Positions 6,033 to 9,185 of a stretch of 64,000 bases of DNA are shown here, one piece after another (the first letter of the stretch is position 1; every line of letters starts with the position of its first letter). The translations under genes and the position numbers were made by a program. The notes under the pieces were generated by a model. That model was given only the letters and a program-made list of their open reading frames with translations, was not told where the DNA came from and did not search any database. This DNA comes from Pseudomonadota bacterium (GTDB taxonomy: Bacteria > Pseudomonadota > Alphaproteobacteria > GCA-2746255). Where the stretch lies: assembly GCA_040752895.1 (NCBI GenBank), contig JBFMHN010000003.1, positions 1 through 64,000 of the forward strand. Direction: 5' to 3'.

Positions 6033-6647
6033 TTACTCTCGCGACTTCTTGGCAATTTCCTCAAGCCGCCGCTGCATGACTTCCACCTGCTGCCGGAGGT
6101 CGCGAAGCGCCTGTTCGCTTGGTTTGGCCTCTTTTGCGGCACCGCCTTCTTCCTCAGATTCCTTTTCCGATTTGGTATCCGCGAAAGGCACGAAAAGCTC
6201 CATCATGTGCTCGAAGATGGCAAGGTTCTGCTTGCCGATTTCTTCAAACGGGCTGAACGGCTTGGGTGTGCCGAACGCGGTCATCAGATACTTACGCAGC
6301 CGTTCTTGGTTTTGCGTGAAGGTGTGCATCGAGCTTTCGAGGTAGCGCGGCAAGATGTCCTGAAGGCTTCCTCCGTAGAAGCCGATTAACTGGCGAAGAA
6401 ATTTGATGGGAAGGAGGTTTTGGCCTTTTGATTCTTCTTCAACGATGATTTGGGTAAGCACGGATCGGGTCAGGTCTTCGCCGGTTTTGGCATCGTAGAC
6501 AACGAAATCCGTTCCCTCTTTTACCATTTGGCATAAGTCCTCCAGCGTCACATAGCTGCTGGTTGCCGTGTTATAGAGCCGCCGGTTGGCGTATTTTTTA
6601 ATGGTAATGGGCGTAGCGTCGGCGCCGGCGGCTTTTTTTCTACTCAT
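6033..6647 (-). CDS. phaR: Polyhydroxyalkanoate synthesis regulator PhaR
   Basis: A 204-aa DNA- and PHA-binding repressor that controls phasin and PHA genes. The N-terminal domain (about 15-75) carries the family pattern KKYANRRLYNT...YVTLEDL...V; a second conserved stretch follows (about 85-130), and the C-terminus (about 175-200) is predicted coiled coil. It is divergent from the PHA synthase-like genes and shares the 6648-6792 intergenic region with them, so control of those genes and of itself is likely. No clear CTGC-type operator pair was recognised there. Confidence 0.93.
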   Translation of the reverse strand: MSRKKAAGADATPITIKKYANRRLYNTATSSYVTLEDLCQMVKEGTDFVVYDAKTGEDLTRSVLTQIIVEEESKGQNLLPIKFLRQLIGFYGGSLQDILPRYLESSMHTFTQNQERLRKYLMTAFGTPKPFSPFEEIGKQNLAIFEHMMELFVPFADTKSEKESEEEGGAAKEAKPSEQALRDLRQQVEVMQRRLEEIAKKSRE

Positions 6648-6792: not shown

Positions 6793-7164
6793 ATGTCGGA
6801 ATCCCCTGACCTTGAGGTCTTGGCCGCTCGTTTTCTTGAGCTCTGGCAAGACCAGCTGGCGGCGATGGCACAGGATTCGGCCAATGTCGAGATCATCACC
6901 CGCCTCTACCGTCACTTTGCGGAAATCACTCTCCCCACCGTGCTAGGAGCGGCCTATTCCAACGAATTCCAAAACAACCGAAAAGACGGAGCCGCTGGGT
7001 CGGCTGCTCGGCCCGAGACCGTTGCCGCTTCATCTGGCGGCGCCGATGCTCGCTTGGCTAAGCTCGCAAGGCGTCTTGCCGCCGTTGAAAAACGATTGGC
7101 TGCGCTGGAATCGGGACCTTCTACCCGCCGCCGAAGCCCTGCAAAAAAAACTCGCCGAGGTTGA
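6793..7164 (+). CDS. Coiled-coil protein overlapping the PhaC-type gene, possible synthase partner
   Basis: A 123-aa protein beginning MSESPDLEVLAARF, with a helical N-terminal half (LWQDQLAAMAQ). The C-terminal part from about residue 85 is a heptad-like coiled coil (LAKLARRLAAVEKRLAALE) ending in a basic tail. This layout, directly before a PhaC-type enzyme and divergent from phaR, suggests a PHA granule or synthase-associated protein, comparable in role to PhaE or PhaM. That is inference. The last 209 bases (6956-7164) also encode the N-terminus of the next gene in another frame. The ATG at 6793 lacks a clear ribosome-binding site. Confidence 0.65.
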   Translation: MSESPDLEVLAARFLELWQDQLAAMAQDSANVEIITRLYRHFAEITLPTVLGAAYSNEFQNNRKDGAAGSAARPETVAASSGGADARLAKLARRLAAVEKRLAALESGPSTRRRSPAKKTRRG

Positions 7165-8227
7165 TCCGGCGGTTTTTCGAAGTGCTGTTGATAGAGTCGC
7201 CCGCCGCCAGTTCTCGGAAACGATGGCGGGTGTCGTCGCTTACCGTCGCCATCCTTATCACCGTACGCTGCCCTCGCCGCCGGTCGTTTGGCGTTCCGGC
7301 GCGGCGCGGCTGCTTGATTATGGGACGGAAGCGACGGCAAAGGCGAAGGGCGTTCCGGTTCTTTTCGTGCCATCGCTGATCAACCGTTCCTACGTACTGG
7401 ATCTTTCGGAGCGTACCAGTATGCTTCGTCACTTGGCGAACCTGGGCGTTTGGCCGTTCCTTGTGGATTGGGGAGAGCCTGGCGCCGCTGAACGCAACTT
7501 CACGCTTACGGACTACGTCGCGACTGTTTTGGAAGGGGCTTACCGGGCGACGCAAAGTCTGGCCGGCGCGCGCGTCGCCATTGTCGGCTACTGTATGGGC
7601 GGCCTGCTCGCCCTTGCCTTGGCCATCCGCCAACGCGCGCACGTGCCCGGTTTGGCCCTGTTGGCGACGCCTTGGGATTTTCACGCCGGCGAGAACGGGA
7701 AGAATCAGGGCCGGATCGCTAGGTTGGCGTTCGAATCTCTAGCACCCCTCATCGAAGTATTGGGCGAAATGCCGATTGACCTCGTGCAGAGTTTCTTTTT
7801 CTTCCTGAGCCCGTTCCAGGCTTCGCGAAAATTCCGTAATTTTGCCAATCTCGATCCGAGCTCCGCCCGGGCGCAGGATTTTGTGGCGCTCGAGGACTGG
7901 CTGAACGATGGGACGCCGTTGGTGGCGGGGGTCGCCCGCGAGTGTTTGCTGGATTGGTACGGCGCCAATGCGCCCGCCCGGGGGGAATGGAAAATCGCCG
8001 GCCAGGACGTGCGGCCGGAGATGTTCGATCGTCCGGCGCTGGTCCTCGTGCCTGGCCAAGACTACATCGTGCCGCCGGAATCCGCGCACGCCCTTGCGGC
8101 AGCCCTCCCCAAGGTTGAAAGCCGGACCCTCGCCACCGGCCATATCGGCATGGCCATTGGTGCCCGGGCGCCGCATGTGCTTTGGCATCCCCTCGCCGAA
8201 TGGTTGCGCAGCGTTTACGCCGGCTGA
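6956..8227 (+). CDS. PhaC-type alpha/beta hydrolase (poly-hydroxyalkanoate synthase family)
   Basis: About 423 aa. The PHA synthase fold is shown by the nucleophile motif GYCMGG, with Cys replacing Ser as in PhaC, by VPSLINRSYVLDL and VDWGEPG in the core, and by a C-terminal GHIGMAIG His motif. It is shorter than typical class I PhaC (about 580 aa) and nearer class III length. No ATG is available: the frame opens at a TAG at 6944-6946. An AGGAG at 6945-6949 is six bases before an ATT codon at 6956, my preferred start; TTG at 7022 is the fallback and gives 401 aa. Synthase versus depolymerase activity is not settled by sequence. Confidence 0.8.
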   Translation: MPTNSKTTEKTEPLGRLLGPRPLPLHLAAPMLAWLSSQGVLPPLKNDWLRWNRDLLPAAEALQKKLAEVDPAVFRSAVDRVARRQFSETMAGVVAYRRHPYHRTLPSPPVVWRSGAARLLDYGTEATAKAKGVPVLFVPSLINRSYVLDLSERTSMLRHLANLGVWPFLVDWGEPGAAERNFTLTDYVATVLEGAYRATQSLAGARVAIVGYCMGGLLALALAIRQRAHVPGLALLATPWDFHAGENGKNQGRIARLAFESLAPLIEVLGEMPIDLVQSFFFFLSPFQASRKFRNFANLDPSSARAQDFVALEDWLNDGTPLVAGVARECLLDWYGANAPARGEWKIAGQDVRPEMFDRPALVLVPGQDYIVPPESAHALAAALPKVESRTLATGHIGMAIGARAPHVLWHPLAEWLRSVYAG

Positions 8228-8352: not shown

Positions 8353-8381
8353 TTGCATGGAGCAAAAATAAGAAATAATAT
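8353..8381 (+). promoter_or_regulatory. Sigma-70-like promoter of phaB
   Basis: TTGCAT (8353-8358) and TAATAT (8376-8381) are separated by 17 bases. They lie in an AT-rich island (about 8365-8455) that contrasts with the surrounding GC-rich genes and ends just before the phaB ribosome-binding site (AGGGGGG). This implies phaB has its own transcript. Confidence 0.55.
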
Positions 8382-8462
8382 TTCTATTCATATAATAAAT
8401 ATATTATATAGATGCTTAAAACATATATTTAATATAATTTTATTATAAAAATAGGGGGGCTC

Positions 8463-9185
8463 ATGAAGCGCGTAGCATTGGTGACGGGGGGCATCCGGGG
8501 AATCGGGGCGGCCATCGCGAAGGCGTTGCAACAGGCCGGCCACAAGGTTGCCGTCAATTATCACCGGGACGAGGCGACGGCGGCCAAGTTCAAAACGGAG
8601 ACCGGTATTCCCGCCTACAAATGGGACGTCGGCGATTTTGCCGCTTGCCAGGCAGGCCTCGCCGAGATGACAGTTGATCTGGGCCCGGTTGAAATTCTGG
8701 TCAACAACGCCGGCGTCACGCGCGACGCCGTCCTTCACAGGATGACGGTCGAGGAGTGGAATGCTGTCCTTCGAACGAACCTTACCTCTTGCTTCAACAT
8801 GTGCCGGTGCGTGATCGAATCGATGCGTGAGCGAGGGTTCGGCCGCATCATCAACATCGGGTCCATCAACGGCCAGGCGGGTCAGTATGGGCAGGTGAAT
8901 TACGCAGCCTCGAAGTCCGGGATTCACGGCTTCACGAAGGCGCTCGCCATGGAATCGGCTGCAAAGGGTATTACCGTGAACACCATCGCACCCGGTTATG
9001 TCGACACGGAGATGGTCCGCTCGGTGCCCGAGAAGGTCTTGGAAAAGATCGTTTCGAAAATCCCGGTTGGCCGGCTCGGCCAGGCGAAAGAAATTGCGCG
9101 TGGGGTCCTTTTCCTGGCGTCCGATGAGGGCGGCTTCGTCACCGGCTCGACGATATCGATCAACGGCGGCCAGCACATGTACTGA
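8463..9185 (+). CDS. phaB: Acetoacetyl-CoA reductase
   Basis: NADPH-dependent reduction of acetoacetyl-CoA to (R)-3-hydroxybutyryl-CoA, the monomer step of PHB synthesis. The 240-aa short-chain dehydrogenase has the cofactor motif TGGIRGIG (8-15), NNAG near residue 80, and the catalytic Ser-Tyr-Lys set in GSINGQAGQYGQVNYAASK. Length and sequence fit PhaB better than FabG (ISINGGQHMY end). It lies downstream of phaR and the PhaC-type gene but behind its own AT-rich promoter. It converges on gloB. Confidence 0.92.
   Translation: MKRVALVTGGIRGIGAAIAKALQQAGHKVAVNYHRDEATAAKFKTETGIPAYKWDVGDFAACQAGLAEMTVDLGPVEILVNNAGVTRDAVLHRMTVEEWNAVLRTNLTSCFNMCRCVIESMRERGFGRIINIGSINGQAGQYGQVNYAASKSGIHGFTKALAMESAAKGITVNTIAPGYVDTEMVRSVPEKVLEKIVSKIPVGRLGQAKEIARGVLFLASDEGGFVTGSTISINGGQHMY

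Follow-up and report, generated by a model that had tools for sequence, protein, structure and literature searches.

A coiled-coil gene and a PHA synthase gene overlap out of frame across Alphaproteobacteria, with a probable ATT synthase start in one genus

We analyzed a window of 64,000 nt (GCA_040752895.1, contig JBFMHN010000003.1, positions 1 to 64,000 of the forward strand; genome code G000 in the comparisons) that contains a PHA gene cluster in which a small gene and a phaC-type synthase gene share the same DNA in different frames (Table 1). The phaC frame is open from a TAG stop at 6944-6946 to its terminal TGA, and its first ordinary start codons are TTG at 7022 and ATG at 7046, with no ATG, GTG or TTG before them. 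A sequence-only reading of this stretch had drawn attention to the overlap, to the lack of an ATG after the stop at 6944, and to an AGGAG placed six bases ahead of an ATT, all of which we confirmed from the coordinates of the two frames and from the sequence. The genome encodes a further PhaC-like gene on contig C1, with an open frame of 604 aa. Between phaC and phaB, a stretch of ~90 bases (8370-8455) is AT-rich in an otherwise GC-rich genome and is possibly a promoter or regulator site; the phaC-phaB gaps of the congeners G002 and G003 contain similar stretches, and G001 has none, with phaA directly 3' of phaC.

Table 1. Features of the small gene/phaC locus in the window.
Feature	Position	Strand	Details
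phaR, PHA synthesis repressor, divergent	6033..6647	-	TIGR01848 157.4 bits, cut-off 109
Small gene, unnamed family	6793..7164	+	ATG 6793, stop TGA 7162-7164, 123 aa, frame 1
Shine-Dalgarno AGGAG	6945..6949	+	six bases 5' of start codon; identical in 4 species of the genus
phaC start codon ATT (most likely)	6956..6958	+	aligned codon ATG in G001, ATT in G002 and G003
Out-of-frame overlap small gene/phaC	6956..7164	+	209 bases; phaC frame +1 with respect to the small gene
phaC-type PHA synthase	6956..8227	+	423 aa counted from ATT; stop TGA 8225-8227, frame 2
phaB, acetoacetyl-CoA reductase	8463..9185	+	TIGR01829 341 bits, cut-off 302

The downstream gene carries the residues of a PHA synthase in general, namely the Cys of the GxCxGG box (here GYCMGG, nucleophile codon 7592-7594) together with the conserved Asp (8060-8062) and His (8141-8143), and C195, D351 and H378 were invariant across relatives in alignment A1. 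Its best profile was the class III PhaC model TIGR01836 (E 4.7e-48), at 164 bits against a curated cut-off of 365.3 bits, a score that does not place it in class III; Pfam PhaC_N matched at 2.1e-6. The clade to which this PhaC belongs has its own N-terminus with a GPRPLxLH motif, which begins at 7010 in the window and of which G1, P2, R3, P4 and H8 were invariant in an 11-sequence alignment. The motif thus begins 5' of all ordinary starts in the frame, with TTG 7022 lying inside it and ATG 7046 past it.

The small protein consists of a conserved N-terminal helix with an LW-DQ motif (6811-6873), a second helix, a variable linker, a coiled coil at about residues 84-107 (7042-7113) and a basic tail. 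Across the family, L-A and L-W form the invariant core of the N-terminal helix and the coiled coil has an R-E-R heptad pattern, while the basic tail is present in most, not all, members. AlphaFold2 placed helices at residues 7-27, 29-55 and 84-107 with a mean pLDDT of 72.8, at low overall confidence (pTM 0.33). Searches with Pfam, NCBIfam, PhaE and PhaR-subunit models returned no match for the small protein. PhaE (PF09712) had no match in the genome and was listed by Pfam for 0 of 22 family members, hhalign against PhaE gave a probability of 3% and no sequence homology, the class IV PhaR subunit model TIGR02132 had no match in the genome at E up to 10, and searching the profile of the small protein against PDB sequences retrieved coiled-coil look-alikes only. 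We rejected a PhaE or class IV PhaR identity, as homology to either was not detectable; judged by sequence, the small protein falls outside every family tested. The small gene lacks annotation on seven Azospirillum plasmids, where it sits in the phbCAB operon region with phaR on one side and an 'alpha/beta fold hydrolase' on the other; this absence is suggestive rather than final because the PLSDB gene table is incomplete. In Azospirillum brasilense Sp7, the locus adjoins AMK58_RS26790. The PHA context at that locus is phaR, phaC, phaA and phbB, and the Azospirillum phbCAB operon has been described (PMC10383645).

We found the pair to be widespread. Among 130 alphaproteobacterial loci, some of which are duplicates, that we drew from named genome collections and from class-wide ones, the small family lay 5' of phaC in 129 and overlapped it in the same relative frame in 127. 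Where the PhaC motif was recognized, a small ORF was present at 106 of 107 loci, always in that frame, and a second pass over the other 24 loci added 21 in the same frame; of the remaining three, two had short forms and one had no small ORF. The minimum overlap, measured from the PhaC motif to the small-gene stop, had a median of 161 nt over 92 distinct loci. A search of 59 relatives gave a PhaC match in 38 and a small-protein match in 16, located at the phaC locus in all 16. Of 20 loci of greater divergence, including three fetched again from genomes already used, most likewise had the overlap, and within these 20 the small gene was not found in G342, G016, G148, G079, G083 and G319. In family f42 (G044, G170, G266), the small genes are short and free of the coiled coil and end ahead of the PhaC motif, so that small gene and phaC are separate and barely or not at all overlapping; at the f42 loci L176, L177 and L178, the small gene stops just before the motif. 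A short form without the coiled coil likewise occurs in G030. At one further locus, L169, a true PhaE gene precedes phaC, whose frame is open upstream through the basic C-terminal end of PhaE, and this pair may form a similar but shorter overlap. We found no report of a small gene/phaC overlap in the open-access literature. As far as the compared genomes show, the overlapping pair is a feature of the class and not a peculiarity of one genome, and the probable ATT start is a feature of the genus.

Both frames bear signs of selection. Using 19 independent pairs selected regardless of overlap identity, we found that changes silent in PhaC but altering the small frame stood at 0.431 downstream and at 0.300 in the overlap. 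The dNN/dNS of the small frame was 0.88 (0.79-1.00) compared to 1.14 (1.02-1.29) for the same frame downstream, a noncoding control, with wide intervals of which that around 0.88 reaches 1.00; an alternative pairing gave 0.79 versus 1.20, and the sole gap-free pair of the genus 1.02 versus 1.14. When we recoded phaC synonymously 100 times per locus and scored each half of the loci with an HMM trained on the other half, the real small frame outscored all 100 recodings in 87 of 92 distinct loci. It was open in 92/92 loci compared to ~52/92 by chance, for loci that had entered the set via a small-ORF match. Taken together, the comparison shows both frames to be conserved and under purifying selection across Alphaproteobacteria, neither being free of it over the overlap. 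The proposal that two proteins, a basic-tailed coiled coil and a PhaC-type N-terminus, are coded in one stretch is thereby borne out by class-wide homologues, by the lowered synonymous divergence and by the recoding test. Annotated long same-strand overlaps are frequently mistakes, and a sequencing indel or a chance open frame could in principle mimic such a pair; this carries a negligible probability here, as the same architecture recurs in more than 90 distinct loci from independent assemblies and the recoding test refutes it. We therefore rejected an indel or assembly error.

The four genomes of the genus point to where the synthase begins. An AGGAG lies six bases before the start site in all four, reading AGGAG-CGGCCT-ATT in the window, AGGAG-CAGGAG-ATG in G001 and AGGAG-CCGATC-ATT in G002 and G003, i.e., with ATT in three species and ATG in one. 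Searched on both strands, the 64 kb window contains a single AGGAG-N6-ATT. In the small frame, the residue before the glycine varies at this site (Leu, Ala, Leu, Ser), while the third position of its codon is A in every case and the glycine is invariably encoded by GGA, two choices that are rare in this genome, and this persistence under residue change indicates that AGGAG is kept for its own sake. With codon usage taken from 40 long ORFs of the window, the chance that the Leu, Leu, Ser and Ala codons preceding GGA all end in A is ~3.5e-9, assuming an independence that related genomes do not have. The 3' end of the 16S rRNA was looked for in the assembly and not found. In the phaC tree, the window's genome pairs with G001 and G002 with G003, such that ATT would most simply be ancestral with one change to ATG. 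Alternatively, PhaC could start downstream and the ATT stand there by chance, TTG 7022 and ATG 7046 being the first ordinary starts in frame. We consider this improbable, because a start at either codon would truncate or lose GPRPLxLH with its invariant residues, G002 lacks ATG 7046, and AGGAG-N6 is preserved ahead of the ATT/ATG site. In this genus, the very rare codon ATT is hence the most likely start of phaC, and the AGGAG-led start put forward earlier is well supported by the comparison within the genus.

Across the distinct loci, the synthase generally has an ordinary start of its own. An in-frame ATG or GTG was found within 100 nt 5' of the PhaC motif in 89 of 92 distinct loci, the exceptions being the window, G002 and L118. 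G000 and G002 have a stop just 5' of the site and no ordinary phaC start, and G003 has a further in-frame ATG 90 nt before the motif that lacks a Shine-Dalgarno sequence. At L118 (JAATGN010000167.1, 2866-3000), none of ATG, GTG and TTG occurs in the open 135-base stretch leading up to the motif of phaC, for which ATC or CTG is a possible start. The missing ordinary starts in G000 and G002, together with the +1 position of phaC, would also suit a +1 ribosomal frameshift in the overlap that fuses the N-terminus of the small protein to PhaC, in line with the earlier suggestion of a frameshift yielding a single synthase. This is very unlikely given the ATG or GTG in 89/92 loci, and it did not hold up in the wider comparison: no fused homologue was seen among homologous loci, the genes are separate in f42, the coiled-coil tail past any shift point is conserved too, and AGGAG with the aligned ATG of G001 explains initiation. 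Near-cognate initiation may extend to IF3 itself in this genus, as suggested by infC in all four genomes (L172-L175, from G002, G003, G000 and G001, respectively), in which a conserved ATA-GCT-AGG is preceded by no ordinary start; IF3 most likely starts at this ATA.

Overall, we favor, with a probability of about 0.72, a real overlapping gene pair in the PHA operon, with an internal ATT start of the synthase and a small protein that serves as an activating or granule-organizing subunit. The upstream gene would encode a small helical coiled-coil protein, and the synthase would start inside that gene, one frame on. Initiation by ribosomes at the internal site would not depend on the stop of the small gene, which at ~200 bases downstream of the phaC start is too far for ordinary stop-start coupling, while ATT, a codon of the class discriminated against by IF3, may hold down the output of synthase compared with that of the small protein. 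The N-terminal helices of the small protein could bind the synthase, the coiled coil could oligomerize it, and the basic tail could act on nucleic acid or on the granule. A subunit-like function, as for PhaE, class IV PhaR or PhaM, is suggested by the co-location with the PhaC clade and by the build of W-helix, linker, coiled coil and basic tail, so that this previously unlabelled gene product is probably a PhaC accessory subunit. Its basic tail and coiled coil, and the PHA operon context, would also suit a phasin-like granule protein or a DNA-binding protein encoded by a second real gene, a role that we regard as unlikely, since the small protein is found only beside this PhaC clade, suggesting a direct partnership. 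More tentatively, and at somewhat less than even odds, it may represent an overlooked, undescribed subunit family of a large clade of alphaproteobacterial PHA synthases, coded out of frame over the synthase N-terminus, with the ratio in this genus set by the IF3-sensitive ATT.

Bacteria rarely carry long overlaps in which selection acts on both proteins, and such cases are mostly written off as annotation errors; here the overlap is kept across a class, with a structured domain encoded in both frames. Concealed within it is a likely partner of an enzyme of biotechnological importance, in the well-studied genera Azospirillum, Magnetospirillum and Thalassospira, where phaC knock-outs or heterologous clones may unknowingly have changed or lost that partner. 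The ATT start furthermore offers a testable case of near-cognate initiation beyond infC and pcnB.

Among known systems, the pair resembles class III PhaC-PhaE in that TIGR01836 is the best match of the catalytic subunit and the partner gene lies upstream, and the small protein shares with PhaE its helices, C-terminal coiled coil and basic tail. It differs in the synthase (164 bits, with the cut-off at 365, and a different N-terminus), in the size of the partner (~90-200 aa versus 310-420 aa for the PhaE proteins seen here, with no detectable homology), and in the out-of-frame overlap of the genes. The class IV PhaR subunit of Bacillus is likewise a small helical partner of PhaC with a C-terminal coiled coil, as the small protein would be, but has no TIGR02132 match in this genome; the transcriptional repressor PhaR has its own gene at this locus. 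PhaM of Ralstonia, a small PhaC activator with a basic tail, may be similar in size and tail, whereas no family match was returned for the small protein. E. coli infC and pcnB also use an AUU start codon, read under IF3 discrimination, and the infC of the present genus probably uses ATA, but here the gene is that of a metabolic synthase and its start lies inside another gene. Finally, among same-strand bacterial overlaps, the phase with a +1 shift has been reported to be more numerous among long ones (PMC2542354); the present pair shares this shift and differs in being very long, kept across a class, and coding for a structured domain in both frames.
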